Shown piece after piece: positions 44,662 through 63,518 of a stretch of 64,000 bases of DNA. Under the pieces are notes generated by a model that ran no database searches, had not been told where the DNA came from, and saw only the letters and a program-made list of their open reading frames with translations. A program made the position numbers and the translations under genes. The DNA lies in NCBI RefSeq assembly GCF_015354335.1, contig NZ_JADKYR010000001.1, positions 186,001-250,000 of the forward strand, read 5' to 3'. Position 1 is the first letter of the stretch. Each line of letters begins with the position of its first letter. Source of the DNA: Methylophilus sp. 13 (GTDB lineage Bacteria > Pseudomonadota > Gammaproteobacteria > Burkholderiales > Methylophilaceae).

Positions 44662-45078
44662 ATGTGCTCACAAATTACCTTTCCGCTGACCATTTATTAC
44701 GATGCCTCCTGCCCCTTGTGTCGGACTGAAATAGAGACGCTGAAGCAAGCTGATGATACAAACCAGTTAATACTGGTCGACTGTTCGCAAACTGCAATGC
44801 AGTTACCCGACAGTTGCCCGGTCACGCGTGACGCCCTGATGAACAGGATTCACGCGCAAGACGCCATGGGACGCTGGATCAATGGTGTCGATGTGTTTGC
44901 CGCGGCATACACCGTGACAGGCTTCACAAAGATGGGCAAATTCTGGTCTAGCCGGATACTGCGGCCCTTGCTTAGCCGAGCCTATCCGTGGGTGGCCGAC
45001 CACCGACAGTGGCTTAGCAAAACACCCTTGCCGTGGTTGTTGCATAAGCTCATCTCAAAAAACGCCAAGCCGCGCTAG
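44662..45078 (+). CDS. DCC-family (DUF393) thiol-disulfide protein
   Basis: A 138-residue protein with thioredoxin-like N-terminus and YYDASCPLCRTEIETLK, the DCC-family CxxC motif, followed by VDVFAAAYTVTGF and a hydrophobic C-terminal half. Many relatives are annotated as predicted thiol-disulfide oxidoreductases without proven substrate. No neighbour suggests a partner; it converges on tdm. Confidence 0.88.
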   Translation: MCSQITFPLTIYYDASCPLCRTEIETLKQADDTNQLILVDCSQTAMQLPDSCPVTRDALMNRIHAQDAMGRWINGVDVFAAAYTVTGFTKMGKFWSSRILRPLLSRAYPWVADHRQWLSKTPLPWLLHKLISKNAKPR

Positions 45079-45257
45079 TTGGCTCATCACAATGACCTTA
45101 GTGATTGGTCTGGCAAAGACCCTTACACTCTAAATCTTTGCCATGCTGGATGCACCGACTCAGTGTATGCATCACAATTCAGCGCGGAGAAACGCCCCCC
45201 AGCAACACAAAGGCATTAAGACCATGTACGACACAGGATCTATATGTCTCATCAGCC

Positions 45258-47582
45258 TCATGCGAGTAGTTTCTCGCGCTTAGGGTCATAAAAAGGCAAC
45301 TTCACGACCTCTCCCGCCAAACGTTTCTGTTGCCCATCCAGCTTACCTATATCCAGGCGCGTGCCTATGCTGGAAAAATCGGGTGCCACGCGCACGATAG
45401 CAATCTGTTTTCCCATCAATGGCGAATAAGTAGCGCTGGTGACGATGCCAACCGGGAAACGCCCATGATAAACATGATCGCCATGACTGGCAGGGTCGCC
45501 ACCTTGCAGAATCATGCCGACTAAACGATGTCGGCTCTCTGGCGCTTGCCGCGACAAGGCTTCACGGCCGATAAAGTTTTCCTGTTTGCTATGTAAAGGC
45601 ACACTGAAACCAGTGCCTGCTTCAAATGGATTGGTACTGTGGTCAAACTCGTGCTCAGCCATACTCAAGCCGGCTTCAATGCGCAGGATGTCAAGCGCAT
45701 TCAACCCCATAGGGGCAATCTGAAAGCGCTGACCCGCTTGCCACACAGCATCCCATAATGCTTCGCTATCATCGGGGTGACACCAGACTTCATAGCCCAG
45801 TTCGCCTGTATATCCGGTTCTGGAAACCATCAAGGGCACGCCTGCAGCCCCTCCTAGCCGGCCAATCGTAAAGTGAAACCATTTGAGTTTTTCAACCGAG
45901 GGCTGACTATCAGGGGTCCAAATCAGCTTGCTTAACAATTCACGGCTGTTCGGGCCCTGCACAGCGAGATTGTCTAGCTGTGCGCTGGCGTTGCGGATGC
46001 TGACTTTAAAGCCTTTTTCTTGGGCTTTTTCCCTCATCCAGATACCGGTGTATTCCGCACCGCAGCACCAGCGAAAAGCCTGTTCCCCCATACGGAATAT
46101 GGTGCCATCATCGATCATGCCGCCGGTTTCAAGACAAATCGCCGAGTGCGCAATTTCACCGATGGCCATGCGGCTGATGTTCTGCGTTAATACATACTGC
46201 AAAAAAGCCACCACATCAGGGCCGACGATTTCAAATTTGCGTATCACCGACAAATCTAACAATGCCACGCGTTCACGACAGGCGAGATATTCGGCATTCG
46301 TCCCCCAGCCATCGTATTCAGTGGCCACCCAATAGCCTGCATAGTCGATAAACTTTTTGGTCAGTGCGGAAGTTCGGGGGTGAAAACCAGAAGATTTGGT
46401 CATGCGTGGCAGCTCCTCAGAAGTGTTTCGATAGGCAATGGCGCGTGGGAAAAATTGTTCAGCATCGTAAATACGCACATGAATATCGGTCGGATGCCAG
46501 CCATTGGCAGGATCAATATCGTCAGGACAAGCAGAAGAGGCGCAGACAAGGTCTCGCTCAGCACGCATTAAAATATAATCCCCCGCCCGTGACCACGGTT
46601 CATCCATCAGCACGGCGCCCGAGGCGTCAATAAAGGTGTTAAAAAACAAATTAATCGCTGGCCAGCCAGCCCGTGGTGCAATGCCATACTTAGCCAACAG
46701 TTGGTTAAAGTTGTCGGTGCAACTGGCGTGGCCGAAATAGCCACTGTCTTCGTAGTATTTGGGGGTACAAGCCAGTAGAAAACTATCGTGCCGACCCACG
46801 GTATCCTGCACCACTTCTGTCATCGGTTTCAGATCCGAACCAAGGTATCGTGAGTGCAATCCGGGTACAGGATTGCTCAAGCCCATCACCGTTCTGGTCG
46901 CTGTCGCATCCAGCCCCAACACAATGCCTTGTTCCAAAGCCTGTTTATCAAACGCAATAAAATCCGAGCACTGCTTGCCAGACACATCAATAATCTGAAT
47001 CCATTCGCCTTTTTTGACTTCATAGGTCTGTGCCGTGGCGCGATTAACCCTCAACTCGTGCTTGATTGGCGCCAAGGGTGCGGGCAAGGGTGGTTCTGCC
47101 AGATTGGCGTAAGTCACGGTAATGTCCACTTCAGTGACTGGCGTGTGCGCTTCAACGGACATGTTTGGGCCAGCCACGACAATCACGACAGTCAAAGCAT
47201 TTGCTGCTGTAAATTTGGCATGCTCTGCACCTGACACTGTGATTGCTTGCTGTAAAGAAGCGTCATCCAGCTGCCAAGTGTTTAATTGATTACGCAGCCT
47301 TTGGGAGGCTGCACCACCCTGCTCAAGTTGCTGTTGAATACCGATAGCGACGCCTGGCGGACGCTTATCGAGTAACGCAGGTGCCAATGTGCCATGAGCA
47401 TCCAATACAATCAGCTCAGTGCTTTGCGCTTGGTCTGGACTTAGAATTTCAAGCCGGTCGCCCGCGCTCAGCGATAATTGAATGGCATGTTGTCCATCCA
47501 GACGGTACTTGCTAATAGGCTTGGTGAAGGAAGCGCCAAAATAATAGTCCTCCCCCCACTGCTGTTCTTTGATTGCTTGCAT
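45258..47582 (-). CDS. tdm: Trimethylamine N-oxide demethylase (aldolase)
   Basis: Splits TMAO to dimethylamine and formaldehyde; a C-terminal folate domain can catch the formaldehyde. The 774-residue protein has an N-terminal DUF1989-type domain (about 170-390) with GKQCSDF, DTVGRHDSFLLACTPKYYEDSGYFG, HASCTDN and DLVCASSACPDD. His285, Cys288 and Cys352 keep the spacing I recall for the zinc ligands of Methylocella silvestris Tdm (His276, Cys279, Cys343). Residues about 400-770 form a GcvT-like aminomethyltransferase/folate domain. Divergent from tmm, sharing a 428-base regulatory region. Confidence 0.93.
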   Translation of the reverse strand: MQAIKEQQWGEDYYFGASFTKPISKYRLDGQHAIQLSLSAGDRLEILSPDQAQSTELIVLDAHGTLAPALLDKRPPGVAIGIQQQLEQGGAASQRLRNQLNTWQLDDASLQQAITVSGAEHAKFTAANALTVVIVVAGPNMSVEAHTPVTEVDITVTYANLAEPPLPAPLAPIKHELRVNRATAQTYEVKKGEWIQIIDVSGKQCSDFIAFDKQALEQGIVLGLDATATRTVMGLSNPVPGLHSRYLGSDLKPMTEVVQDTVGRHDSFLLACTPKYYEDSGYFGHASCTDNFNQLLAKYGIAPRAGWPAINLFFNTFIDASGAVLMDEPWSRAGDYILMRAERDLVCASSACPDDIDPANGWHPTDIHVRIYDAEQFFPRAIAYRNTSEELPRMTKSSGFHPRTSALTKKFIDYAGYWVATEYDGWGTNAEYLACRERVALLDLSVIRKFEIVGPDVVAFLQYVLTQNISRMAIGEIAHSAICLETGGMIDDGTIFRMGEQAFRWCCGAEYTGIWMREKAQEKGFKVSIRNASAQLDNLAVQGPNSRELLSKLIWTPDSQPSVEKLKWFHFTIGRLGGAAGVPLMVSRTGYTGELGYEVWCHPDDSEALWDAVWQAGQRFQIAPMGLNALDILRIEAGLSMAEHEFDHSTNPFEAGTGFSVPLHSKQENFIGREALSRQAPESRHRLVGMILQGGDPASHGDHVYHGRFPVGIVTSATYSPLMGKQIAIVRVAPDFSSIGTRLDIGKLDGQQKRLAGEVVKLPFYDPKREKLLA

Positions 47583-48010
47583 CGATTCACCATGTCTTAC
47601 GAAGTGTCCAAGTTAAGAGCGTGCCTATCCTATGGATATCTATTAATAGGTTGATATTCACCAACAGGCTGTTATCCAGTGCACTAATATTGACTTTGAC
47701 GGCATGAGATTCAATTACCCTCATGGCGTACCTCTTTGGTATTAGGCTTCGCCCTCACTCAGCCATGTCAACAGTGCATAAGTGCCAGCGATTCTGTTGT
47801 ATCCACAATGGCTGGGCTATGCGCGGTCATCAAAACGCACTCAACACATTTCCAGCCACGGCCTAATCAACGTGATGACCTCACCATCACTTACCCAATT
47901 TGGAGTACTTCTTGATGAGGATTTTTCATCTTGGTGAAGCAGGTTACTTTAGCGACATCGCGCTTCTAAACGCGGCGCAAACTAATCAATCAGATTTATG
48001 GAGAATCCTA
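47583..48010. promoter_or_regulatory. tdm/tmm divergent control region
   Basis: No reliable gene; the 37 codons in front of tmm are not family-like. It contains a NarL-type 7-2-7 dyad (47892-47907), an overlapping TACCTCT heptamer with a perfect TACC-N5-GGTA dyad (47729-47741), and GGTTGATATTCACCAAC near 47650. GGAG at 48000-48003 serves tmm. Confidence 0.65.
47892..47907 (+). promoter_or_regulatory. NarL-type 7-2-7 dyad upstream of tmm
   Basis: TACCCAA-TT-TGGAGTA. Each half matches the TACYYMT heptamer of NarL at six of seven bases in the classic inverted 7-2-7 layout. It lies about 104 bases before the tmm ATG. It shares TACCC-N5-GGAGTA exactly with the site at 56163-56178. Confidence 0.65.
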
Positions 48011-49381
48011 ATGTCAACGCGAATAGCCATACTCGGCGCGGGTCCTAGCGGCCTCGCACAGCTTAGAGCCTTTCAATCAGCCCAGGCAAAAGGCGCTCAA
48101 ATTCCAGAAATTGTGTGTTTTGAAAAACAAAGCGACTGGGGTGGGTTGTGGAATTACACCTGGCGTACAGGGACAGATGAACATGGCGAGCCTGTCCATG
48201 GCAGTATGTATCGTTATCTTTGGTCTAACGGTCCCAAAGAGTGTCTGGAATTTGCCGACTACACCTTTGAAGAACATTTTGGCAGGCCGATCGCCTCATA
48301 CCCACCACGCGAAGTGTTGTTTGATTACATCAAAGGTCGCGTAGAGAAAGCAGGTGTGCGCAATTATATTCGCTTTAATACGGCTGTACGCAATGTCATC
48401 TTTAGTGAGGTGACTCAGAAGTTCACCGTGACTGTGCAAGATCACACCACGGATACCATTTACGCAGAGGAATTTGATTACGTGGTCTGCGCAACAGGGC
48501 ATTTCTCTACCCCAAAAATCCCGAGTTTTGAAGGCTTTGACAAGTTTGGCGGCCGCATCTTGCATGCCCATGATTTCCGGGATGCCCTGGAGTTTAAAGA
48601 CAAAGACATTCTATTGGTTGGCAGTAGTTATTCCGCAGAAGATATAGGCTCACAATGTTACAAATATGGGGCACGCAGCATCATCAGCTGTTACCGCACC
48701 GCACCAATGAATTATAAATGGCCCAAAAACTGGGAAGAAAAACCCAATCTGGTCAGAGTCGATACGGATACTGCTTATTTTCTCGATGGCAGCTCGCGAA
48801 AAGTGGATGCGATTATTCTGTGCACCGGCTATTTGCACCACTTTCCATTCCTCGCAGATGATTTACGCCTAAAAACCAACAATCGACTATGGCCACTTAA
48901 CCTGTATAAAGGCGTTGCATGGGAAGACAATCCAAAATTCTTCTATATCGGCATGCAGGATCAGTGGTATTCCTTCAATATGTTTGATGCGCAGGCTTGG
49001 TACGTGCGAGACATTATTTTGGGACGTATTGAATTACCGGCAAAAGCCGAGATGAAAGTGCATAGCATGCTATGGCGTGAAAAAGAACTGGCGCTACAAA
49101 CGGCGGAAGAAATGTACACCTACCAAGGCGACTATATTCAGGAGCTGATAGATGCCACTGATTATCCATCATTTGATATTCCTGCGGTCAACAAGACCTT
49201 CCTTGAATGGAAGTATCATAAAAAGCAAAACATCATGACTTTCCGTGATCACTCTTATCGCTCCTTGATGACGGGCACCATGTCCCCACCCCATCACACA
49301 CCTTGGTTAGAGGCGTTGGACGACTCATTAGAAGCCTATCTCTCCGATAAAAGCGAATTGCCTGCGGTGAAAGAGGCTTAA
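48011..49381 (+). CDS. tmm: Trimethylamine monooxygenase
   Basis: Flavin-containing monooxygenase converting TMA to TMAO with NADPH and oxygen. From the ATG at 48011 (GGAG seven bases upstream) the protein has 456 residues. FAD site GAGPSG at 9-14; the FMO motif [11 protein letters not shown] at 179-189; NADPH site [10 protein letters not shown] at 204-213. Tyr207, which I recall as functionally important in marine and Methylocella Tmm, is present. Length and motifs match Tmm well. An upstream ATG at 47900 gives a non-conserved extension. Followed after 93 bases by the dimethylamine monooxygenase genes. Confidence 0.93.
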
Positions 49382-49474
49382 GTTAAAGGATATGTTCTCT
49401 AAGGTGCTCACTTCATCCTGCGCAAAAAGCACCCTTATTGGATAACCATGGATATGATTTAACGGAAAAATACG

Positions 49475-50080
49475 ATGGAACGCGGATATTGGATTCGAAG
49501 TAAGCCGGTCTATTCAACCTTGGTCTGGCAACAACAAGCAAACGCACATATTGTGCTGGTTGAAGGCAGTGCTGGGGGCCTGGCGGCAATGAAGTTATTC
49601 CAGCAAATGCATCCAGAGCACCCTACCAAAGTACTCTACGCGAGAAACCCCGTGGTGCAACAGGATTTCAGCGTCCCCTTAAGCAAGGTCGTGCCGGATG
49701 CGCTGTTGATGTTTGAAACGACAGAGGAGTCTCTCGTTGCATTTGAGGCCCATTTATCCAGTGCATGCATGGGCTTACGCATCTACGTGGCAGGCTCTGA
49801 GCGCTTTATCTGGCAGGTGGCTCAAATGGCTGACAAGTATGGCATTGATGACAGTGACATCCTCAAAGAGCTCGTTGGCACCTTAGCTAGGCCTATCTAT
49901 TGCGTGCACTGCAAGACCATCTCTTATGAAGCGCATACCAATATCAAAAAATGTGATGGCTGCGGCAAACAACTGTTTGTCAGAGACCACTTTTCTAGAC
50001 GTCTTGGTGCTTATATGGGGCTGATGGTGGACGCTGAAGACCCAGGGCAGATTCCAAGCATTGAGGAGATTTATCCTTGA
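49475..50080 (+). CDS. dmmA: Dimethylamine monooxygenase subunit DmmA-like
   Basis: A 201-residue cytoplasmic protein. The N-terminal two thirds have a Rossmann-like pattern (IVLVEGSAGGLAAMKLFQQ, LRIYVAGSERFIWQVAQMADKYG). The end is a zinc-ribbon with Cys143, Cys146, Cys160 and Cys163 (YCVHCKTISYEAHTNIKKC, DGCGKQLFVRDHFSRRLGAY). This layout fits the DmmA/gamma-type subunit of the dimethylamine monooxygenase, whose role is probably electron or subunit docking. The stop codon overlaps the next start (TTGA). Confidence 0.82.
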   Translation: MERGYWIRSKPVYSTLVWQQQANAHIVLVEGSAGGLAAMKLFQQMHPEHPTKVLYARNPVVQQDFSVPLSKVVPDALLMFETTEESLVAFEAHLSSACMGLRIYVAGSERFIWQVAQMADKYGIDDSDILKELVGTLARPIYCVHCKTISYEAHTNIKKCDGCGKQLFVRDHFSRRLGAYMGLMVDAEDPGQIPSIEEIYP

Positions 50081-51030
50081 GTACATTTAAAGTTGTTGTT
50101 TCAAATATTCAGCAAATCACTCCGCTGATTAAGCAGTTCTCTTTTATCAGGGAGGATGGCGCAAGTTTCCCTCCATTTTCAGGGGGAAGTCATGTGGTTG
50201 TTGCGATGAACATTAATGGCCGACTCCATCGCAACCCTTACTCACTGATGGGCTCTCCACAGGCGCCTGATGCTTATCACATTGCCGTGCGCCTACAAGA
50301 GCACTCACGCGGCGGCTCGGCTTACCTCCATCACGAGGTAAACGTTGGCTCTCAATTAGAAATCACGTATCCAAATAACTTATTCGCGTTGGATAAAAGA
50401 GCGCGTAAACATCTACTCGTCGCTGGTGGCATTGGCATCACCCCATTCATGTCGCAGATTGAAGATTTAATCAGGACCAAAGCCAATTACGAATTGCATT
50501 ACGCCTATCGCTCTCAGGATCACGCGGCATTCACCTCTACCCTGAAAGAAAAATGCGATGAAAGAATCCGTGTGTATGTCGAAAGCGAAGGACTCAGCAT
50601 TGATCTCAAAGCGCTATTAAGCAAACAACCCCTGGGCACCCACGTCTATGTGTGTGGACCGAATGCGATGGTGGTGGCTTTAATTGAAACGGCGCGATCA
50701 CTGGGTTGGCCAGAAAATCATATCCATAGCGAACAGTTTTTAGCGCCGCCTTCAGGTGAACCATTCAAAGTGAAATTGGCAAAATCTAACATTGAAGTTC
50801 ATGTCCCCGCAGAAATGAGCATGTTGGAAGCCATTGAAGCGGCAGGGGTGGATGCGCCCTACTCTTGCCGTGGCGGCGCATGTGGCCGCTGTGAGCTGGA
50901 AGTCATCCGAACTGATGGCGTGCTGGTGCATCAAGATCACTATTTATCAGAAGCAGACAAGGCGGCTGGCAAAAAGATTATGCCTTGCGTCTCGCGCGCA
51001 AAATGCCACTCCTTAGAAATCAATCTTTAA
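50077..51030 (+). CDS. Dimethylamine monooxygenase reductase subunit (PDR/VanB type)
   Basis: A 317-residue NAD(P)H:flavin/2Fe-2S reductase. Flavin-binding N-terminal barrel (RNPYSLMGSPQAPDAYHIAV), NADH domain (LLVAGGIGITPFMSQIEDL, VYVCGPNAMV) and a plant-type ferredoxin domain with Cys264, Cys269, Cys272 and Cys304 (PYSCRGGACGRC, MPC). It would pass electrons to the heme subunit. The TTG start overlaps the previous stop, with GAGGAG upstream; no ATG fits the N-terminus. It is the Dmm reductase by context. Confidence 0.88.
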   Translation: MSTFKVVVSNIQQITPLIKQFSFIREDGASFPPFSGGSHVVVAMNINGRLHRNPYSLMGSPQAPDAYHIAVRLQEHSRGGSAYLHHEVNVGSQLEITYPNNLFALDKRARKHLLVAGGIGITPFMSQIEDLIRTKANYELHYAYRSQDHAAFTSTLKEKCDERIRVYVESEGLSIDLKALLSKQPLGTHVYVCGPNAMVVALIETARSLGWPENHIHSEQFLAPPSGEPFKVKLAKSNIEVHVPAEMSMLEAIEAAGVDAPYSCRGGACGRCELEVIRTDGVLVHQDHYLSEADKAAGKKIMPCVSRAKCHSLEINL

Positions 51031-51041
51031 CAGGAAATGCT

Positions 51042-52079
51042 ATGAGCTTAGCTTTTAAAAAAGAAACCTTTCGTGATGACTATACTTACCAAAACTCACC
51101 CGAGGCCATCAAACGGTTTCCATTTCCGTTCGCAGAAGACACCTATATGTATTCAGTGAATATTGAGCCCCACACCAAGGGGCCGGTGGGCGCTGTGACT
51201 GAATTTGCTTTTGATATTGATGAGCACTACGTCGCTGAATGCGAGGATAAAGCCAAAACATTAGCGCTAGATGCGGGACGGTACCAGGCCTTGCCACACA
51301 TGGCGGAGGCGCAATGGGACTTTCTAGAGCTGACGATGGAAAGTTTATCGAACGACTATCCTGACCTATTTTTGCTCAAAAAAGACGGCCTATTGTGGAC
51401 CTGGGAAAATAAACCGCTTGGGATTAAAAACACGTTTACATTTGGCGACAGCACCTCATTTGACATGGATCCAATGGAGTATATGGGGAGACAGGTGCAA
51501 GGTGACTTTGTGCTATTGGATCAACGCAACGGTACCTTGTACGCCGATGCTGGCTTTATCACCAGCCAAGCAGATTGGTCGTTGGCCTTTGATGTGGGCA
51601 TGGCGTGGCATGAGTGGCACGGCCCTGTCCCGCAAGTGACGAAACTCGGTGTGATGGACCGTGCTTTAAAATTCCTCATGGCCTTGCAATTGGGTGCACC
51701 CGTACGGCGTTTAAATTGGACCATGACAATTAATCCAAGATTAGATACCTCGCCCGAAAACTATCCCTTATGGGGCGGCGACCGTAATAAAGTGACCATC
51801 GACAATGTGGGCGAGCTTGTACATTTACGTGTTGAGTTACAAAGTCTATTCAGATTGCCACGCAGCAATGCCATACTGTTCAGTATTCGCTGCTATTTAA
51901 TCAATATGAATGAGTTGACCACTTCTGCACGCTGGGCAAAGCGCTTTCATCGCGTGCTAAAGTCATTACATCCGGATTTAGTGGAGTACAAAGGCTTAAC
52001 CAAGTTTAAAGATTTAACGGTGCAATGGCTGTCTAAAAAAGATGATGGCGCAGAAGTGGCATTAGGGACGCACCCATAA
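51042..52079 (+). CDS. Dimethylamine monooxygenase heme subunit (DUF3445)
   Basis: A 345-residue heme-dependent oxidative N-demethylase alpha subunit. The DUF3445 family uses a PAS-fold heme to demethylate dimethylamine (Pseudomonas HODM). Motifs: RFPFPFAEDTYMYSVNI, FTFGDSTSFDMDPMEYMGRQVQGDFVLLDQR, and WHEWHGPVPQVTKLG with RLNWTMTINPRLDTSPENYPLW. The ATG follows AGGAAA; a longer upstream frame overlaps the reductase. Converges on the PAS-protein gene with 25 bases between. Confidence 0.88.
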   Translation: MSLAFKKETFRDDYTYQNSPEAIKRFPFPFAEDTYMYSVNIEPHTKGPVGAVTEFAFDIDEHYVAECEDKAKTLALDAGRYQALPHMAEAQWDFLELTMESLSNDYPDLFLLKKDGLLWTWENKPLGIKNTFTFGDSTSFDMDPMEYMGRQVQGDFVLLDQRNGTLYADAGFITSQADWSLAFDVGMAWHEWHGPVPQVTKLGVMDRALKFLMALQLGAPVRRLNWTMTINPRLDTSPENYPLWGGDRNKVTIDNVGELVHLRVELQSLFRLPRSNAILFSIRCYLINMNELTTSARWAKRFHRVLKSLHPDLVEYKGLTKFKDLTVQWLSKKDDGAEVALGTHP

Positions 52080-52104
52080 TGCTGGATACCCTCTAGCTTG
52101 AAAA

Positions 52105-53484
52105 TCACATGAAATACTTTTGTAAACTCTGTATGGCCTGTGATCCATCTTCTTGAGCCACATCGGTAATGAAGCCTTCAAGTGCTAACAACTCTCCAGC
52201 ACTTGAAAATACCCCTTTACCCTGCTCTAGTACCCATTTAACCGCGCCAGAACGCGTATAAATACGATAAAGTAATTGGAATTTTTGTTGATGCCTGATT
52301 TTCTCTTGCACATGATCCCAGGCGATATTGCGGTCCTCAGGATGAATAATCTGGGCATAGGAAAAGTTGGAGTTGCCTATCATTTCATACGGTTCGTAAC
52401 CGGTAATATCAACCGCGCCTTCACTGACAAATTCAAAACTCCAGTTTTTATCATTTTTACAACGATAAATCATGCCAGGCGTATTGTTGATGAGCGCATT
52501 AAGCAGATGACGATGACTTCTTTTGGTAGACTCCGTGAGCTTCATTTGGCTGATATCGGTGAGGGTACCGATGATGCTGGATCGTTCGCCTTTGTATGCG
52601 GTGGTGTTTTTAGCACGCAACTCCACCCAATGAGAATCGCCATTTCTGGCAATCAGACGAAACTCGACGACGGTCTTATTGCGCTTTCCTTGAATCAGAG
52701 AAGTGATTCTCGCCTCAGCCAACGGTTTATCTTCTGGATGCACAAAAGTAAGTAAGGTTTTATTGAGACATTCTTGTACTTTGTAACCTAACATCGATTC
52801 CCAAGAATGATTTAAGAATATGATTTCTTGATTCACTTTAAGATAAAACACAATTTGTTCTATGTGATTGATGAGTTGCTCATGGATTGAGTTTTCAAGC
52901 TCACTGGATTCCACCATCTTTTGTGAAAGGCTTGAAGAGAATTGGAGTAAATTGACAACAGATCGACTGTCTTCTTGTATGGGTGAAATGGAGACGTGTG
53001 TCGGTAAAATGCTGCCATCCAGGCAGAGCAAACGAATGCGTAAGTGATTCTTTTTATCTTGTGTCGCCGTTGTCTTTGCAAATAGAGAAGCCAGCAGCTG
53101 ATGGTCGCCAGGATGAATAATATTGGTCAACGGCATCCCGACCACTTGCTCCTGCATGCTTAACATGCCAATTTCCATCAGAAATGCTTTGTTCGCAAAC
53201 TTAACAATGTAGCCATCAATGACTGCGGCAGGCGTAGAAAGATTGCTGGACACATCGTTGGCCCAAGTCACGCTATGATCCATCGATGGCTTGGGATGAC
53301 GCGTATAATGTTTACGAAAGATGGGGTAGATTGCAATCAACAACAATGAAGACAATGCAGTGGTTGCAGCGATCATCAATGCAGATAAATGCGTGTTAAA
53401 TGAAGCGCCAGACACCCACCATGCGTTAAAGACGATAAAAAAAATGACACTCAATATTAGTGTGCTAAAAACAAACAAACTCAT
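52105..53484 (-). CDS. Membrane protein with PAS domains and no output domain
   Basis: A 459-residue protein: two N-terminal membrane helices (LFVFSTLILSVIFFIVFNAWW and a second to about residue 58), then three PAS/PAC units (about 85-195, 205-315 and 325-450). The third ends four helical turns before the C-terminus. No kinase, GGDEF, EAL, HTH or cyclase domain follows, and the frame closes cleanly with TAA/stop signals. It shares a 41-base promoter space with the kinase gene at 53526. A sensor that works through the partner kinase is plausible (inference). Confidence 0.85.
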   Translation of the reverse strand: MSLFVFSTLILSVIFFIVFNAWWVSGASFNTHLSALMIAATTALSSLLLIAIYPIFRKHYTRHPKPSMDHSVTWANDVSSNLSTPAAVIDGYIVKFANKAFLMEIGMLSMQEQVVGMPLTNIIHPGDHQLLASLFAKTTATQDKKNHLRIRLLCLDGSILPTHVSISPIQEDSRSVVNLLQFSSSLSQKMVESSELENSIHEQLINHIEQIVFYLKVNQEIIFLNHSWESMLGYKVQECLNKTLLTFVHPEDKPLAEARITSLIQGKRNKTVVEFRLIARNGDSHWVELRAKNTTAYKGERSSIIGTLTDISQMKLTESTKRSHRHLLNALINNTPGMIYRCKNDKNWSFEFVSEGAVDITGYEPYEMIGNSNFSYAQIIHPEDRNIAWDHVQEKIRHQQKFQLLYRIYTRSGAVKWVLEQGKGVFSSAGELLALEGFITDVAQEDGSQAIQSLQKYFM

Positions 53485-53525
53485 CTAAGCGCCTTTCGCG
53501 GGAAATTTCAATTCCGGAGTCATCC

Positions 53526-55370
53526 TTGAGCATTCAATTTGCAAGCCTGATCAAAAGCATCAAAGATCTGACAATACACACATTGTATGCAAAGCTTATC
53601 ATATTAATTTTTTGTATTACTTCCAGCTTGATACTCATGCAGGCCGGCTCTCTTTTTTTGCTCGACTACACTGCTAACAATCAAAAAGTCATTCAAAACA
53701 TCACCAAAGAGCAGATTTTCTGGCAACACTTTTCTGACACCGCCATCGGAGAAGCGCCGGAGAAATTACCCGAAGCAATCCTTAAGGCCGATCCCCATTT
53801 ACGCTTTGATCTCGGCAAGATGGTGGCACAGATTAACAACCATGATGCCACGCAAGTCAATCAACTGTTACAGAAACTCAGAGAAGCAAGAGAAAAAATC
53901 AGTGACAGCCACTTTCAACAAGCGTCCATCACCTCGCAACGACTCACGGTTCAAACCTTAATCTCAAGCTATGAGCAATTGGTCGCGCTATTGTTGCAAG
54001 AGGTCGAGGCAAAGCAATCAGTGATTGCACTGCTGCAGCTGCTGAGCATTTATTTAGCCATCAGTTGCTTGATCACCATCGCGTTTAGAGCGAGAAAGCT
54101 CCTGGTTCATCGTCTGGATACGCTAGTCAGTTTTGCTGGCTCAGACGCGCAAAATGAACAGCGCGAGCAGGATGAAGATGAGTTTGTCAAAATTGAACGC
54201 CTGGTCTACGAAACCTCGGCAAGACTAGAAGGGTTTAAAGCAGAAAACGAATGGTTCAATCAAAATAGCAGTGAACGCCTGCGTCGATTAATTAGATCAC
54301 AAGACTTTCTGCATGAATTTGTAGAATCTATCAACAACACTTTATTAAGCGAAACAGTCTTACGCAAAAGTTTATTCTCGCTGGAAAAGGCCTTAAACAT
54401 TTTGAATGTCTCTCTCATTTTTACCGAAAATGACTTGGGCATTTCAACAGAGCGCGTTTTATTTTCCAATCACAAACCAGAAAAACTCAGTGACGCCATT
54501 TTAGAAGATCTCACCACAACGAATCTGGTGAGATTCTGTACCAATGACAATTCGTCACATGACAATGGCTTTCAATGCATTGCGGTCGGCTTCGTCACCC
54601 CCACTGGGGCATTGGGCGTGTTACAGGTCGAGGCGGATCTTGAGCATGTGTTTGATGAAACAGAAACGCAATTGATAGAACTGACGGCACATTTACTTTC
54701 TATGGTGATGGGTTTCCAAGGACGGGAGCAAGAGGGGCGGCGTCTGGCATTGTTAGAAGAGCGTGCGGCCATTGCCCGTGAATTGCACGACTCTCTGGCG
54801 CAATCATTGTCGTTCATGAAAATTCAAATTTCGCGGCTGCAAAGTGCAAGCAACAACCAATTAGAGACGAATGAATTTCGCGGCATTGTCAACGAATTGC
54901 GCGATGGCTTGAATACGGCTTATCGTGAGCTACGCGAGTTATTGGCAACCTTCCGCGTACATATGGATGTGCGGGGATTGAATTCGGCGATTCAGACTGC
55001 CATTGATGAATTTAGCCAGCGCTCCAACCTATCCATTTCCCTGGATAATCGTCTGATAAACTGTCGCTTGACTGTCAATGAAGAGTTTCATATTTTACAT
55101 GTATTGCGTGAGGCACTCTCCAACGTAGTGCGCCATGCAAACGCAAGTAGAGTGGAAATCTCACTTAATTTTCAAAGCAGTGGAACCATCATTATCATCA
55201 TTGATGATGATGGTATTGGCTACACCGCCACTGAAGCGTCTGGCCATTATGGACAGAGCATCATGCAAGAGCGGGCAGAAAGCCTGGGGGGAAATGTTGC
55301 GGTTCTCAGACGCAAACAAGGGGGCACGCGAGTGCGCTTGATTTTCACGCCACAGTTGCCTCAATCATAG
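53526..55370 (+). CDS. NarX-like sensor histidine kinase
   Basis: A 614-residue membrane kinase. Helix 1 at about 22-45, a periplasmic helical domain of about 120 residues, helix 2 at about 170-190. Next come a GAF-like region, and the HisKA_3 site EERAAIARELHDSLAQSLSF with phosphorylated His421. The ATPase domain shows VLREALSNVVRHANA and IDDDGIGYTA. It has NarX-type architecture, but the nitrate-binding P-box is not recognisable, so it likely senses another signal. TTG start with GGAG upstream. Followed 14 bases later by its response regulator. Confidence 0.92.
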   Translation: MSIQFASLIKSIKDLTIHTLYAKLIILIFCITSSLILMQAGSLFLLDYTANNQKVIQNITKEQIFWQHFSDTAIGEAPEKLPEAILKADPHLRFDLGKMVAQINNHDATQVNQLLQKLREAREKISDSHFQQASITSQRLTVQTLISSYEQLVALLLQEVEAKQSVIALLQLLSIYLAISCLITIAFRARKLLVHRLDTLVSFAGSDAQNEQREQDEDEFVKIERLVYETSARLEGFKAENEWFNQNSSERLRRLIRSQDFLHEFVESINNTLLSETVLRKSLFSLEKALNILNVSLIFTENDLGISTERVLFSNHKPEKLSDAILEDLTTTNLVRFCTNDNSSHDNGFQCIAVGFVTPTGALGVLQVEADLEHVFDETETQLIELTAHLLSMVMGFQGREQEGRRLALLEERAAIARELHDSLAQSLSFMKIQISRLQSASNNQLETNEFRGIVNELRDGLNTAYRELRELLATFRVHMDVRGLNSAIQTAIDEFSQRSNLSISLDNRLINCRLTVNEEFHILHVLREALSNVVRHANASRVEISLNFQSSGTIIIIIDDDGIGYTATEASGHYGQSIMQERAESLGGNVAVLRRKQGGTRVRLIFTPQLPQS

Positions 55371-55384
55371 AAAGACATTTAAAA

Positions 55385-56026
55385 ATGATGCAGACCCAAT
55401 ACAAAGTGTTCTTGATTGATGATCATGCCCTCTTCCGCAAAGGGGTTGGGCAAATCATAGATGCAGACCCTGCATTCAAAGTAATCGGTGAAGCCGCCTC
55501 AGGGCAAGAGGGTTTGGATACTGCCATTGGCTTTAAACCAGACATTGTGTTGATAGACCTCAACATGAAAGGAATGAATGGCATAGAGACCTTACGCCAA
55601 TTTAAAGCGTTAGATCTCACAGCCAAATATGTGGTGCTGACGGTGTCAGATGCTGAAGACGATTTATTAGAGGCCTTGCGCGCAGGTGCTGATGGCTACT
55701 TATTAAAAGACATGGAGCCGGAAGACCTCTGTGCCAACTTAAAAAAAGTCGCTAATGGCATGACGATTATTCAAGACACACTCACTGAAGTGCTAAGAAC
55801 AGCCCTTTTAGAGCCTAAACCTCAACGTAAAGATGAGCAGGCTTCGCTCACTGAGCGTGAAAGAGAAATATTGCAATGTCTCAGTGACGGACTCAATAAC
55901 AAAACGATTGCGCGCAAACTTGGCATTAGCGACACCACCGTGAAAGTGCATATCAAACATTTATTGAGCAAACTTAAACTAAGCAGCCGCTTAGAAGCCG
56001 CAGTCTGGGCACACAATCAAAAATAA
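55385..56026 (+). CDS. NarL/FixJ-family response regulator
   Basis: A 213-residue two-domain regulator. Receiver: DDHALFRKGV acidic pair, phospho-acceptor Asp58 in IVLIDLNMKG, and Lys in YLLKDM. LuxR-type HTH at about 150-213 (LTEREREILQCLSDGLNNKTIARKLG, then DTTVKVHIKHLLSKL). Pairs with the kinase upstream. NarL-type 7-2-7 sites near tmm, the permease and the gcvT-like gene are its probable targets. A hairpin terminator follows at 56049. Confidence 0.94.
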   Translation: MMQTQYKVFLIDDHALFRKGVGQIIDADPAFKVIGEAASGQEGLDTAIGFKPDIVLIDLNMKGMNGIETLRQFKALDLTAKYVVLTVSDAEDDLLEALRAGADGYLLKDMEPEDLCANLKKVANGMTIIQDTLTEVLRTALLEPKPQRKDEQASLTEREREILQCLSDGLNNKTIARKLGISDTTVKVHIKHLLSKLKLSSRLEAAVWAHNQK

Positions 56027-56048
56027 GGTGTACTAGCGCAGACCTCGT

Positions 56049-56079
56049 GCCTTTTTAGCGCTCAGCAAAAAGGCCTTTT
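56049..56079 (+). terminator. Terminator of the response regulator
   Basis: GCCTTTTT (56049-56056) pairs with AAAAAGGC (56067-56074), followed by CTTTTC. It ends the kinase/regulator pair. Confidence 0.65.
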
Positions 56080-56361
56080 CAAATTGTGCGTAGGCGCAAG
56101 GTCACGCATACGCGCCTATCAACACCTCCCCCCTCCAACGCTCCTTTGAAATCTTCTCCAGCTACCCCTTAAGGAGTAATCCGTAGTGAGAATTTAGTAA
56201 ACAGCTGCAAATCATCAAAATAGATTCCATTGTGGATGTATTGACTTAATCCCATGTGCAGTTGATATCTGATTGTCATTGAACGTTGATCTTCTTATTA
56301 GCCTTTCTTGAAATCAGTAGATAGGTGAAAAAAAGAAGGCTTTTAGGGAAGGGAAAATAAG
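56080..56361 (+). promoter_or_regulatory. Permease control region
   Basis: No gene seen in this stretch. It carries a NarL-type 7-2-7 dyad at 56163-56178, described separately, and GGGAA just before the GTG start. The 335-base gap from 56027 to the permease is explained by the terminator and this region. Confidence 0.6.
56163..56178 (+). promoter_or_regulatory. NarL-type 7-2-7 dyad upstream of the permease
   Basis: TACCCCT-TA-AGGAGTA: both heptamers match TACYYMT at seven of seven positions in the inverted 7-2-7 layout. About 184 bases before the permease start. Confidence 0.75.
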
Positions 56362-58056
56362 GTGAGTATAAATTCTTCGATTGATATATCTCAAGCCGGC
56401 TTCGCAGGTGGTGCTGAAAGCAAGCACACGCTGCATCGAAAGATTGGTTGGCAAGGTGCATTTTGGGTCGCTAGTGGCGTGCCAGCGCTTGTATTGTTTT
56501 CTATGGGCGCCATTTCGGCAACGGTAGGCAAACCAGCTTGGTTGGTATGGGCTATTTCTATCACATTTGGTTTTATTCAAGCATTTACGTATGCAGAAAT
56601 TGCAGGCTTGTTTCCACATAAGTCTGGCGGTGCTTCGGTATATGGCGCGGTTGCATGGGTAAGATATAGCAAGTTTATCGCGCCAGTCTCAGTGTGGTGT
56701 AACTGGTTCGCATGGTCTCCAGTATTGGCTATCGGTTCTGGATTGGCTGCAGGCTACATTTTAAGTGCCTTATTTTCCCCAGATGCCGCCATCAACACCT
56801 GGCAAATTACTCTCATGGATTTGAGTAGCATTAAAGCTGGCTTAAGCTTAAGAATTAACGCAACGTTTATTCTCGGGGCTGCCGTTTTACTCACAGTGTT
56901 TTCGATACAGCACGGTGGTATTTTACGTTCTGCCAAAGCAACCATGATCCTGGGGGTCACAGCTTTAATTCCACTCATGCTGATAGGCTTGGTGCCTATC
57001 CTCACCGGCGACATGCCTATGGCGAATTTCTTTCCCTTGGCGCCTTTAAGTTATGACACAGCCGGGAATGTGATTGATGGTATTTGGAATATTGAAGGCT
57101 GGAAATTAATGGCGGCGGGCTTGTTTATTGCTGCCTGGTCAACGTATGCCTTTGAAACCGCCGTCTGTTACACACGAGAATTCAAGAACCCTAAAACAGA
57201 TACTTTTAAGGCCATTTTCTACTCAGGTTTGCTGTGTATTGCGGTGTACACACTGGTGCCCATCGCTTTTCAGGCGCATTTAGGCTTAGGCCATTTGGTG
57301 ACGCCAGCGGTGACAGATGCCGCGGGTAACGTAACGACTGGCGCGGTATACGATGGGATGTTGGCACCAGACATTTACAGTGGCATGGGCGTTGCCGGGG
57401 TGTTGTCGAGTATGTTGGGCGGCTCCAAGCTGATTGTGACAGTATTGGTAATTATGCTGGTTTTGGCTCTTTTGCTCTCGATCATGACCTCCATGGCCGG
57501 TTCTTCTCGTACGCTTTATCAAGCCTCTGTCGATGGCTGGCTGCCCAAATACTTGTCTCAAGTCAATGAGCATGGCGCGCCTACCAAAGCGATGTGGACA
57601 GATTTGTGTTTCAACCTGCTGTTATTGCTGATGTCAGACTATGTGTTTGTATTGGCTGCCTCCAATGTTGGTTACATCATTTTTAATTTCCTCAATCTGA
57701 ATTCCGGCTGGATACACCGCATGGACAGACCGAACTGGGACCGCCCATACAAAGCACCTACTATCCTACTGCTTTTAGGCGGCTTGCTCGGTTTTGTTAA
57801 CCTGGGATTGATGGGATTAGGCGCTGACGTCTGGGGGGCAGGCACCCTCAATGCCGGACTGTTTTTTGCAACCTTGATTGTGCCGGTTTTTATTTACAGA
57901 CACTTCATCCAGGATAAAGGTGTATTTCCATCAGCCATGCTAGAAGATATGCAACTAGACAATGCAAAGGATGCCGTCATGAACCGCGCTGGCGTGCTCC
58001 CTTACATAGCGTTGCTGGTGGGCGTCTTGATTGTCTTCTGGCTGCATAGCATTTAG
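56362..58056 (+). CDS. APC-family permease, probable methylated amine/TMAO carrier
   Basis: A 564-residue inner-membrane transporter with about 12-14 helices of the amino acid-polyamine-organocation type (IGWQGAFWVASGVPALVLF, ITFGFIQAFTYAEIAGLFPHKSGGASVYGAVAW, AAWSTYAFETAVCYTREFKNP). Its place between the amine regulators and the gcvT-like gene suggests uptake of TMA, TMAO or dimethylamine. I recall that the TMAO permease of Methylocella is found in a similar setting. The substrate is not provable from sequence. GTG start, with GGGAA upstream. Strong terminator after the gene. Confidence 0.8.
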   Translation: MSINSSIDISQAGFAGGAESKHTLHRKIGWQGAFWVASGVPALVLFSMGAISATVGKPAWLVWAISITFGFIQAFTYAEIAGLFPHKSGGASVYGAVAWVRYSKFIAPVSVWCNWFAWSPVLAIGSGLAAGYILSALFSPDAAINTWQITLMDLSSIKAGLSLRINATFILGAAVLLTVFSIQHGGILRSAKATMILGVTALIPLMLIGLVPILTGDMPMANFFPLAPLSYDTAGNVIDGIWNIEGWKLMAAGLFIAAWSTYAFETAVCYTREFKNPKTDTFKAIFYSGLLCIAVYTLVPIAFQAHLGLGHLVTPAVTDAAGNVTTGAVYDGMLAPDIYSGMGVAGVLSSMLGGSKLIVTVLVIMLVLALLLSIMTSMAGSSRTLYQASVDGWLPKYLSQVNEHGAPTKAMWTDLCFNLLLLLMSDYVFVLAASNVGYIIFNFLNLNSGWIHRMDRPNWDRPYKAPTILLLLGGLLGFVNLGLMGLGADVWGAGTLNAGLFFATLIVPVFIYRHFIQDKGVFPSAMLEDMQLDNAKDAVMNRAGVLPYIALLVGVLIVFWLHSI

Positions 58057-58084
58057 TTCAAATTGGAACGCGTGGCCTAACCAA

Positions 58085-58116
58085 GGGTGAGCAAGTTTGA
58101 TTGCTCACCCTTTTTT
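58085..58116 (+). terminator. Rho-independent terminator of the permease gene
   Basis: Perfect ten-base stem GGGTGAGCAA (58085-58094) with TTGCTCACCC (58101-58110), six-base loop and six T residues. Confidence 0.95.
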
Positions 58117-58170
58117 AATCCTTGCTCTGGGTGAGCTCAACTTTTTGAAGGTGTCACTTGAAGACAACTT

Positions 58171-58186
58171 TACTTCTTAAGTAGTA
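58171..58186 (+). promoter_or_regulatory. NarL-type 7-2-7 dyad upstream of gcvT-like gene
   Basis: TACTTCT-TA-AGTAGTA; left heptamer 7/7 and right 6/7 to TACYYMT. It shares the CTTAAG core with the site at 56163 and lies 78 bases before the gcvT-like start. Confidence 0.7.
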
Positions 58187-58263
58187 CATCCTAAAGAGAG
58201 TGTTGAACAAATCTTTATTTTTATAGTATTCCGAATCATCAATTTAATGGGAGAAAAGTCATC

Positions 58264-59373
58264 ATGTCTAGAAACTCAATACTCAATATTCGACACCGGG
58301 AATTAGGGTCAAATTTAGATGGCGACACATGGAACAATATGCCTATTCCTTGGAGCTATCACACTAATGTCCATGATGAAGTTGTCGCAGTGAGGAGTCG
58401 TGCCGGCTTATACGACGTGTCTGGCTTAAACATCATCAATGTGGATGGTCCAGATGCAGAAAAGGTCCTGGATATGCTGGTGGCTAAGGACATCACCAAA
58501 CTCGAACCCGGCCACAGTGTCCTGGCTGCAGAAACGGATGAATCCGGTGCCATTTGTGATGACATCATGATTATCAGAGACAGTGCAAACAGCTTTCGGC
58601 TCTCCCACGGCTCAGGCAAAACACCGGAAAACTTAAAAATGCTTGCGGCTGGCAAAGACGTGACCATCGCGCCCGATCTTGATGCGCATATTTTATCTTT
58701 ACAAGGCCCTCAGTCCTTAGCGATATTAGCGCCGCATGTCATCGACTTTGACCTGGCAAGCTTGGATTATTTTCAGCACAAGCCCACCAGCCTATTTGGT
58801 AAAAATGTTGTCATTGCTCGTGGTGGTTATTCAGGAGAGCGTGGATACGAAGTCTATTGTAAAGGGCAAGATGCCATTGAGCTATGGGATAAGATTTTAG
58901 AGGTTGGCAAGCCTTTTGGCGCGATCCCAGCTTCTTGGAACTCGCTAGAGTTGACGCGCATTGAAGCAGCGCTCTTGTTTTTTCCATTCGAAATGCCTGA
59001 AGGTGATACCACACCATGGGAGATCAACATGGGCTGGGGGGTGGACCTTGACAAAAAGGGAGACTACATCGGCAAAGCGGCTGTATTGGCGTCTAAAGGC
59101 AGAGAGCGGGTAAAACAAGCCGGTTTAATCTGCAAATCACCCACGAGTGTTGAGGCTGGCGCAAAAATAGTCAAAGATGGGGTAGAGATCGGTGTCGTCA
59201 CCAGCGCCTCCTTTAGCAATTATTTAATGCAGTCTTTAGCCATGGTGCATTTAAAGCCAGAATACACAGCGATTGGAACGGCTGTTGAAGTGGTGTGCAG
59301 CCATCAAAAAGTGTCCGCCTATGTGGCCCCTACCCCCTTTTATGATCCTATGAGACGACGGACGCACGCCTGA
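58264..59373 (+). CDS. GcvT-like folate-dependent aminomethyltransferase, likely Dmm partner
   Basis: A 369-residue GcvT-fold protein: SRAGLYDVSGLNIINVDGPDAE, ETDESGAICDDIMIIRD, GYSGERGYEVYCKG, and the folate-binding NSLELTRIEAALLFFPFEMPEGDTTPWEI. It has no glycine-cleavage neighbours (gcvH, gcvP). In this setting it likely transfers the methyl-derived formaldehyde from dimethylamine monooxygenase to tetrahydrofolate, as described for the folate subunit of HODM/Dmm. The letter (DmmD) is inferred and not used as a symbol. Own promoter with a NarL-type dyad. Confidence 0.85.
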   Translation: MSRNSILNIRHRELGSNLDGDTWNNMPIPWSYHTNVHDEVVAVRSRAGLYDVSGLNIINVDGPDAEKVLDMLVAKDITKLEPGHSVLAAETDESGAICDDIMIIRDSANSFRLSHGSGKTPENLKMLAAGKDVTIAPDLDAHILSLQGPQSLAILAPHVIDFDLASLDYFQHKPTSLFGKNVVIARGGYSGERGYEVYCKGQDAIELWDKILEVGKPFGAIPASWNSLELTRIEAALLFFPFEMPEGDTTPWEINMGWGVDLDKKGDYIGKAAVLASKGRERVKQAGLICKSPTSVEAGAKIVKDGVEIGVVTSASFSNYLMQSLAMVHLKPEYTAIGTAVEVVCSHQKVSAYVAPTPFYDPMRRRTHA

Positions 59374-59621
59374 TGATGATAGCGCGTGCGATATCAGGCT
59401 GGCGATGTTGCATGCGCATCTAACGATGCTGCAATACAAGAATGTAAATGACTGTGTGCGGTGGAGACGCTTTCTACAGCAATAACTACCCTTTTAGCGC
59501 TACCTCATTGATGACATGCTAATTTCAAGGAGTGACGGCTAATGATGATTAGCTAGTAAAAATCCACTCTACGTAAATAACAGGTGCCTGTAAGTGGGAT
59601 GCCTGCTTTTTTTACACGCAA

Positions 59622-59642
59622 AATTGCAACATTGTTGCAATT
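59622..59642 (+). promoter_or_regulatory. Zur-like palindrome 1
   Basis: Perfect ten-base arms AATTGCAACA (59622-59631) and TGTTGCAATT (59633-59642) around a central T. The form matches Fur/Zur-family operators with TGCAACA halves. A zinc-type operon follows. Confidence 0.75.
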
Positions 59643-59654
59643 AAATCCCTCACC

Positions 59655-59685
59655 CTTTAAAATGCAACAAAATTGCATTTTAAAG
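59655..59685 (+). promoter_or_regulatory. Zur-like palindrome 2
   Basis: Arms CTTTAAAATGCAA (59655-59667) and TTGCATTTTAAAG (59673-59685), perfect over 13 bases with a five-base centre. The inner AAATGCAACA repeats the half-site of palindrome 1. Centres are 38 bases apart. It touches the ribosome site of the ZIP gene. Confidence 0.75.
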
Positions 59686-59692
59686 TTCAAGC

Positions 59693-60484
59693 ATGTTATT
59701 CCCCAGTTTAATGCTGGCTTGTACCGCCGGTGGTGTGGTTTCGGTACTGATCGCTGGCTGGTTATCTAATACCCTGTTCGCCAATCATGCGCGACGCATG
59801 GTGGCATTTGCCGTGGGTGTATTGCTCGGGTTTGCTTTTACTGATTTATTACCGGAAGCCTTAAATCAAGGCATCAACCTGACCAACGCAGGCTGGATGC
59901 TGGTAGCCGGGATGTTGTTATTTTTCATTCTGGAGAAGCTGGCTCTATGGCGGCATTTCCATCATGCGGACGCTGCACCTGTTGCTACTCAATCGGTAGA
60001 ACATCAGTCCGGCGGCCAAGTGGCCATTATTCTAATCGGCGATGGCATCCATAATTTTGTCGATGGCATTTTGCTGGCGGCCAGTTTTTTAACTGATATC
60101 AAGCTGGGCTGGGTGACGGCATTTGCGATAGTCGCGCATGAGATCCCGCAAGAGATTTCAGATTTTATGGTGTTGATCAATGCTGGCTTGAGTAAACGCC
60201 GTGCGCTCCTGCTTAATATGCTTTCGGGTTCAGCCATGATTGTCGGTGGTTTGGTTGGCTGGTTGAGTTTTACGCATATTGCCCCGCTGATTCCGTACGC
60301 CTTGTTACTGGCCGCCGCCAGTTTTATCTACATCGCCCTGGCAGACTTAGTGCCAACGCTGCAAACGCAATACCGCCCACAGGATTTACTGGTGCAATGC
60401 CTGTTGATTGCTTGTGGTCTCGGCGTGGCCTGGATTTCACCGTTTATTCAGCAACAGATCATTACACTTTGGGAAACCGCATGA
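59693..60484 (+). CDS. ZIP-family metal (zinc) transporter
   Basis: A 263-residue inner-membrane transporter with about eight helices. ZIP signatures [18 protein letters not shown] (helix 4) and [17 protein letters not shown] (helix 5) contain the metal-binding His, Asp and Glu. A His-containing loop ([14 protein letters not shown]) precedes them. Imports zinc or related metals. Its stop overlaps the GTPase start (ATGA), so they are cotranscribed. Confidence 0.9.
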
Positions 60485-61461
60485 CGCAAGCCACACCCAG
60501 AATACCCGTCACGATTTTGACCGGCTTTTTAGGCGCAGGTAAAACCACCCTGCTTAACCGCATTCTGCAAGAGCAACACAGCCAGCGCATTGCCGTGATT
60601 GAAAATGAGTTTGGCGAGACCGGCATAGACGGCGAGCTGTTGATTCAGGGTGACGAGCAAATCGTAGAAATGAATAACGGTTGCATATGCTGCACCGTGC
60701 GTGGCGACCTGGTGCGTATTCTGGGCGATCTGGCGCAAAAACGTGCAGCGCAGGAAATTAGCTTTGACCGCGTGATGATCGAAACCACGGGCCTGGCCGA
60801 TCCGGCACCCGTCGCACAAACTTTTTTTGTCGAAGATGACGTCTATGCCAGCTATCACCTGGATGCGATTATCACGGTGGTGGATGCGGTGCATGCCATG
60901 CAGCAACTGGATGCGCACCATGAGGCGCAAGAGCAGGTCGGGTTTGCTGACCGTATTCTGTTGTCAAAAACGGATCTGGTCACGCCAGAAGCAGTGAGCG
61001 CGCTCTCGGCAAGGCTGCATAACATCAACTCCCGGGCCACCATTCACAGCGTGCACTTTGGCCAAACCGACCTCAGGCAGATTCTGGATATTGATGGTTT
61101 TTCACTGGATGCCATCCTGGAAATCGAACCAGACTTTTTGCGTGATGTGAGTCATGCGCATGATGACGACGTCACCTCGTTTGTGTTTAGCAGCGAGCGG
61201 CCATTTGACCTGCAAAAACTGGAAATCTTTCTCGAAACCATCATCCATGATTACGGCCCGCAGCTACTGCGTTACAAAGGCATTGTGCATGCCTACAACG
61301 ATCCACAACGGATTGTTTTTCAAGGTGTACACATGCTCATGAGTGGTGACCATACCACGCAATGGCAGCCTGATGAGCGCAAAGTGTCTACGCTGGTATT
61401 CATCGGTACCGACCTCCCTCAAGAATTTTTTATGCAAGGACTCAATTTATGTCTGGTTTAA
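60481..61461 (+). CDS. COG0523 GTPase (CobW/YeiR-like metallochaperone)
   Basis: A 326-residue G3E GTPase. P-loop GFLGAGKTT (15-23), the zinc-binding CxCC motif Cys68-Cys71 ([12 protein letters not shown]), [16 protein letters not shown], and a C-terminal CobW domain ([19 protein letters not shown]). Such proteins deliver zinc to target enzymes under starvation. Overlaps ZIP by four bases and the next GTPase by 13. The start is the ATG of the ATGA overlap; an upstream frame from 60397 runs in the ZIP gene. Confidence 0.9.
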
Positions 61462-62711: not shown

Positions 62712-62712
62712 C

Positions 62713-63417: not shown

Positions 63418-63518
63418 CGCGCTGTGATGAAAATAACTTGCCCGATTCATGAGTGTGTCATCAGAACATGGCTAGATAGCGGACGCGCTCATCGCAGGTT
63501 TTTTAATCGCCAGACTGC

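Follow-up and report, generated by a model that had tools for sequence, protein, structure and literature searches.

In a 64,000-nucleotide stretch of the Methylophilus sp. 13 genome (contig NZ_JADKYR010000001.1, positions 186,001 to 250,000; hereafter the window, whose numbering is used throughout), four promoters of methylated-amine genes carry copies of one 34-bp DNA box, in which two overlapping 7-2-7 dyads (inverted heptamers separated by 2 bp) abut the -35 element. Our best reading of the sequence comparisons is that a NarL-family two-component system encoded in the same cluster activates methylated-amine catabolism through this box. A preliminary description of this DNA had proposed a local regulon signature from three 16-bp dyads; the signature is real, larger than first described, and shared with other proteobacterial methylotrophs.

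Two overlapping dyads form a conserved box against the -35 element

Alignment of relatives revealed that conservation at the dyads before dmmD and the permease gene runs 18 bases further; the relative G175, for instance, has TACTTCTTAAGGAGTAATCCGTAGTGAGAATTGT before its own permease gene. The conserved element is a 34-bp box of two 7-2-7 dyads, offset by 14 bp and sharing 2 bp, which abuts the -35 and is followed by a -10 after a 17-bp spacer. Across 98 non-redundant promoters, four of them from the window, columns 1-16 are palindromic (r 0.86), with the inverted TACYYMT-like heptamers of a 7-2-7 site, and columns 15-30 repeat columns 1-16 (r 0.65 at offset 14; 0.29 at the next best offset). 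The tmm promoter shows a plain tandem, 47892-47907 and 47906-47921, sharing 2 bp.

The -10 element lies at columns 54-59, where an A at the second and a T at the sixth position occur in 70/94 promoters from outside the window, compared with 1-14 of 94 when the position is shifted by up to 3. None of the 500 rotation controls reached its column information of 3.07 bits (maximum 0.38). Many of these promoters are mutual orthologs (<80% identity), so they do not count as 94 independent cases. All four window promoters carry the A and the T of the -10. The -35 occupies columns 31-36, straight after the second dyad, which ends at column 30; with the start sites placed by inference, this is the layout of a class II activator. 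Assuming that transcription starts about 7 bp past the -10, the dyad centres would lie near -57.5 and -43.5. The -10 is visible only through cross-species alignment: a generic sigma-70 consensus scan of 47400-58400 gave 12 matches against 18.2 expected, and none at the four promoters. We also considered an RNA element and rejected it; no Rfam match was found in 45000-60500 at gathering scores, and the box is upstream of the inferred -35 and so should not be transcribed.

The window contains three strong boxes and a fourth candidate

The window was scored with a 34-column matrix built only from other species (22 sites, 19 distinct), and the whole genome with a sequence-only covariance model. 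The matrix ranked the boxes at 56163, 58171 and 47892 first, second and third, and the tdm box fourth. The box before the trimethylamine N-oxide (TMAO)-permease-like gene (56163-56196, plus strand; 39.6 bits, covariance-model E 5.7e-7) consists of dyad 1 at 56163-56178 and dyad 2 at 56177-56192, with a -35-like element from 56193 and the -10-like CAAAAT at 56216-56221. Before dmmD, the box at 58171-58204 (plus strand; 31.5 bits, E 1.3e-3) has dyads at 58171-58186 and 58185-58200 and the -10-like TAGTAT at 58224-58229; the covariance model also matched this dyad on the opposite strand. The tmm-dmmABC box (47892-47925, plus strand; 24.9 bits) combines a weak dyad 1 (47892-47907) with a stronger dyad 2 (47906-47921) and the -10-like TACTTT at 47945-47950, and the tmm start was set at the ATG at 48011, downstream of both the box and its -10.

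The fourth box, before tdm, lies on the minus strand at 47711-47744 (11.5 bits, the top minus-strand match in the window), with dyad 1 at 47729-47744, dyad 2 at 47715-47730 and the -10-like AATATT at 47686-47691. We call it a putative box from its position, its orientation and its likeness to trimethylamine-dehydrogenase boxes (see below); it has one mismatch to a 32-base pattern in IUPAC code. When the 3.1-Mb genome was searched with this pattern at up to three mismatches, five places matched, the best four being the four promoters, and the control gave one; the tmm and tdm boxes were already known when the pattern was drawn up. The covariance model, run on the same genome with E up to 10, recovered only the permease and dmmD boxes and missed those of tmm and tdm.

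The box accompanies the clustered regulator in Methylophilaceae

The proposed box ligand is a response regulator (55385-56026, plus strand) with a receiver (PF00072) and a LuxR-type GerE output domain (PF00196) by Pfam, an architecture that places it in the NarL/FixJ family. It follows a histidine kinase gene (53526-55370, plus strand; HisKA_3 and HATPase by Pfam). Divergent from the kinase is a PAS-repeat protein (52105-53484, minus strand; Pfam), in which Pfam finds neither a kinase nor an output domain and which is perhaps an accessory sensor.

A regulator ortholog, defined by 69% identity or more and E below 1e-90, is present in 37/187 family genomes, the window's own included. When genomes were counted by covariance-model matches of E 0.01 or lower, uncorrected for relatedness, the box was present in 36/37 genomes with the ortholog and in 3/150 without it. 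Within the window's genus (22 genomes), box and regulator occur in the same six genomes and neither occurs in the others. We mapped the 36 other orthologous loci, including two that are near copies of the window's own. The order PAS protein-kinase-regulator is identical in all 36, with the PAS protein divergent from the kinase throughout, and 30 have dmmA, dmmB, dmmC or dmmD; the other six include contig-end cuts or one-sided fetches. dmmD lies directly upstream of dmmA in 16/17 other-species loci where this was mapped.

The genes behind the boxes were tallied in 1.11 Mb of other-species loci, using boxes above 12 bits and removing 3 opposite-strand echoes. The 138 boxes stand before genes for the permease (34), trimethylamine dehydrogenase (24), dmmD (19, in 19 genomes), dmmA (15), folE2 (11), a globin (10), a porin (3), an EamA transporter (3), two cupin groups (3 each), a reductase (2) and an Fe-S oxidoreductase (1), with no class given for 10. 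The loci were picked around regulator or box-model matches, so these counts should not be read as covering whole genomes. The folE2 boxes come from 11 genomes (L104, L107, L109, L110, L111, L113, L115, L116, L118, L120 and L131), which suggests shared regulation of amine oxidation and the supply of folate or pterin; the window's own genome, unlike these 11 relatives, has no box at its folE2 (C8). The globin gene is of bacterial type (e.g. L124:13971-14390), and in nine of the 10 cases a divergent permease box lies no more than about 105 bp away.

Outside the family, the box goes with the amine genes

For a wider comparison we kept 80 named loci, the best of at least 472 relatives: 17 from Methylophilaceae, mostly in genomes already used, and 63 others. 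The box scored above 10 bits in 15/17 of the Methylophilaceae loci, the exceptions (L151 and L154) being cut by contig ends. For the others, the presence of amine genes (dmm, dmmD, tmm, trimethylamine dehydrogenase or permease) was judged by eye from the locus map. A box of at least 18 bits was found in 12/13 regulator loci with amine genes and in 0/50 without them, where the highest score was 8.4 bits; a later full-box rescoring covered 45 of these 50 control loci, while the zero count covers all. Six of the 12 box loci are from Methylophaga, two from Methyloversatilis, two from Aquabacterium (one box seen twice) and one from Derxia. The last is from Hyphomicrobium zavarzinii, the sole example among alphaproteobacteria; its box scores 22.3 bits and lies 444 bp upstream of the permease gene.

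The 50 boxless loci include PAS-linked trios without nearby amine genes (L162, L172, L173, L181 and L210) as well as plain NarL-type loci. In L172 and L173, both from Burkholderiaceae, the PAS-kinase-regulator trio is found with porin and EamA genes, and in L172 also with an Fe-S oxidoreductase gene. Neither stretch contains dmm, tmm or trimethylamine dehydrogenase genes, or a box by the full-box matrix; the operator may have diverged there.

The clustered regulator is the favored ligand

It is very probable that the four class II-type boxes are bound by the clustered NarL-family regulator, and the case that the product of 55385-56026 is the ligand is well supported by the comparisons above. 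In the mechanism that we propose, a methylated amine or one of its breakdown products would be the signal on which the kinase (53526), possibly helped by the PAS protein, phosphorylates the regulator. Regulator dimers would then bind the two dyads that overlap by 2 bp, the second of which abuts a poor -35, and the bound dimers, by recruiting RNA polymerase, would activate rather than repress tmm-dmmABC, tdm, the TMAO-type permease gene and dmmD.

Several observations weigh against this reading. The matrix seeds were located starting from the dyad consensus of the preliminary description, although columns 17-34 and the -10 lay outside that consensus. The 11.5 bits of the tdm box fall inside the range of random maxima (mean 2.8, maximum 15.2 in 30 resamples). 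A box is present but no regulator ortholog was detected in three genomes, G047 (90% complete), G181 (99%) and G182 (78%), and G130 has the regulator on a 5.4-kb contig but no box. In G181 (L105:10022-10231) the box scores 45 bits and precedes only a short dmmD-like frame of 126 amino acids, as if the locus had decayed. Outside the family, L222 has amine genes and the PAS-kinase-regulator trio but no box. Another protein of the window's own genome matches the GerE region of the regulator, with 49% identity over 57 residues. Within the box, the palindrome is stronger at columns 8-23 (r 0.66) than at the second dyad, columns 15-30 (r 0.41). Columns 8-23 consist of the right half of dyad 1 and the left half of dyad 2, so symmetry there is predicted by the tandem.

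These last values also bear on how many dimers occupy the box. The second half could instead be a promoter element, or a second dimer could sit elsewhere, for example on columns 8-23; we regard this as possible though doubtful, and it is compatible with the regulator as ligand. It would fit the use of columns 31-36 as the -35, the weaker symmetry of columns 15-30 and the report that Escherichia coli yeaR needs one 7-2-7 site just upstream of the -35 (PMC7419079). The sharp peak of half-to-half likeness at offset 14, however, favors occupancy by two dimers, as does the window's tmm box, where the second dyad is the stronger one.

Binding of the conserved box by another regulator, either travelling with the cluster or encoded elsewhere in the genome, is improbable. 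Co-occurrence is blind to which member of the trio matters, and both the three genomes with a box and no regulator and the own-genome protein with the GerE-region match would be consistent with such a protein. However, inverted TACYYMT-like heptamers are the reported operator of NarL, and the recognition helix of the window's regulator, TVKVHIKH, resembles in sequence the TVKVHVKH of NarL. Within the trio, Pfam assigns a DNA-binding domain only to the response regulator, and its other full-length relatives in the genome are just 25-33% identical to it.

The likeness to NarL raises the question of an ordinary nitrate NarL system with single, independent 7-2-7 dyads, among which the amine genes are included by happenstance. 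The regulator passes the NCBIfam NarL equivalog cut-off (277.6 vs 250), and its best PDB match is E. coli NarL (1a04, E 2e-61). We nevertheless consider such a system very unlikely. The kinase is far under the cut-offs for NarX (220 bits vs 578) and NarQ (227 vs 553), with matches that start at NarX model position 100 and NarQ model position 317 and leave out the sensor end of both. None of the 50 related-regulator loci lacking amine genes has the box, and no nitrate or nitrite respiration gene is found among the assigned gene classes behind the 138 boxes (10 without a class). In a midpoint-rooted tree of the window's regulator and those of 51 of the 80 named loci, a branch (97/91) separates 19 plain NarL-type rows from all PAS-linked rows. 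The box-linked regulators form two clades, with L171 (Pseudogemmobacter, cut by a contig end and labelled unlinked) inside the first. These results flag a group of regulators as likely misnamed NarL.

The full box, not the single dyad, is the local signature

The three dyads of the preliminary description stand before tmm (TACCCAATTTGGAGTA, 47892-47907), the permease gene (TACCCCTTAAGGAGTA, 56163-56178) and the gcvT-like gene dmmD (TACTTCTTAAGTAGTA, 58171-58186), with two, zero and one mismatches to TACYYMT-N2-AKRRGTA, respectively. Their sequences and coordinates were exact and their placement before these genes was correct. When up to three mismatches were allowed, the window contained 31 dyad matches, compared with a mean of 28.4 in 100 shuffles, and is thus without enrichment. 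At up to one mismatch, 11 dyads were found in the 3.11-Mb genome, compared with 14 for a reversed-pattern control. Three of the 11 (56163, 58171 and 47906) fall within 47892-58186, where 0.036 would be expected (Poisson P 8e-6, for a count made post hoc). The dyad at 47906-47921 overlaps that at 47892-47907 and is closer to the pattern, so the position named before tmm is real but the better dyad is its neighbor.

An equal density of dyads away from the locus had been named as grounds for refuting the proposal, and the genome scan answers in two ways: dyads cluster locally, but eight others occur elsewhere. All eight score below 0 with the full-box matrix on both strands; hence the local signature is the full box and not the dyad. 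A bare 7-2-7 dyad alone is weak evidence and is the wrong unit. Phylogenetic footprinting lends strong support to the proposed local regulon with NarL-like sites, once the unit is corrected to a 30-bp tandem with its -35 and -10 and the set is completed with the overlooked box before tdm; the regulon is wider than had been stated. For all the unremarkable counts of bare dyads in the window and genome, chance dyads in intergenic DNA are a negligible explanation in view of the cross-species matrix, the position and orientation of the boxes, their fixed spacing to the -10 and their occurrence in other families.

Enzymes appear to be exchanged beneath a retained operator

No close trimethylamine dehydrogenase was found in the window's own genome, the best match being 34% identical over residues 10-260. 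The 12 boxes most similar to the tdm box are all trimethylamine-dehydrogenase boxes, and the best shares 29/34 bases with it. In the window, tmm occupies the place before dmmABC, and dmmD lies behind the permease gene with its own box. We read this as enzyme exchange beneath a retained operator, which would make the locus a natural example of one operator being kept while the enzyme behind it differs. That tdm captured a trimethylamine-dehydrogenase promoter was considered and rejected; no flank likeness was seen by eye, only the boxes being alike.

On balance we think it likely that this branch of NarL-type two-component systems, whose members routine annotation would label nitrate regulators, is a general methylated-amine regulator in alpha-, beta- and gamma-proteobacterial methylotrophs. 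It would use a new operator layout, in which two dyads that share 2 bp lie against the -35, and its box would have been re-used on non-homologous enzymes of the same steps (trimethylamine dehydrogenase of relatives vs the window's tmm and tdm) and on folE2, which would link the supply of folate to the oxidation of amines. The box may serve as a genome-scale marker for methylated-amine genes, and it predicts new members of the regulon, namely folE2, a truncated globin, porin and cupins.

Gene content of the cluster

The trimethylamine N-oxide demethylase gene tdm (45258-47582, minus strand) encodes DUF1989 and GCV_T domains by Pfam and scores 1039 bits with NCBIfam NF053776, under the cut-off of 1100. 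It is followed by the trimethylamine monooxygenase gene tmm (48011-49381, plus strand; NF058570, 831.8 bits vs a cut-off of 675) and by dmmA, dmmB and dmmC (49475-52079, plus strand), which encode dimethylamine monooxygenase subunits by Pfam (PF22290/PF22289, Fer2 with an NAD-binding domain, and PF11927). Beyond the PAS-kinase-regulator trio are the gene for a permease of the TMAO-permease family (56362-58056, plus strand; NF053774, 839 bits vs a cut-off of 690) and the GcvT-like gene dmmD (58264-59373, plus strand), assigned from Pfam GCV_T and synteny and described in PMC5520151. On both sides (59693-63863 and 44065-44538), the amine cluster is flanked by genes that we named by reading their sequences as a ZIP-like transporter, two CobW-type GTPases and a Fur/Zur-like protein. 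This suggests that the flanks are a zinc-homeostasis neighborhood.

Comparison with known systems

For Methylophilaceae, Methylophaga and Methyloversatilis, the titles and abstract openings of the listed matches from the open-access literature name no regulator of these genes. The closest parallel in promoter layout is E. coli ogt, which NarL is reported to activate from a 7-2-7 site at -44.5 abutting the -35 (PMC7419079); the sequence of a 7-2-7 oligonucleotide, TACCCCTAAAGGGGTA, is given in PMC4549865. The window's system shares with NarX-NarL and ogt the regulator family, the recognition helix, the inverted heptamers with a 2-bp gap and a dimer site abutting the -35. It differs in that its dyads overlap by 2 bp, with centres 14 bp apart rather than the 33 bp of E. 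coli, and in having methylated-amine genes, a kinase without a match to the NarX sensor end and an accompanying PAS protein.

Coordinate control of tmm, tdm and dmm genes is reported for Ruegeria pomeroyi, where it is exerted by TmaR, an AraC-type protein, and TmoR (PMC13390433). The same genes would be under coordinate control in the window, whereas the candidate here is a clustered NarL-family two-component regulator and not an AraC-type protein (no search for TmaR was made beyond the cluster). The enzymes and the permease type are the same as in the dmmDABC/tmm/tdm pathway of Ruegeria and Methylocella, but the window has dmmD apart from dmmABC, under a box of its own, and tmm ahead of dmmABC.

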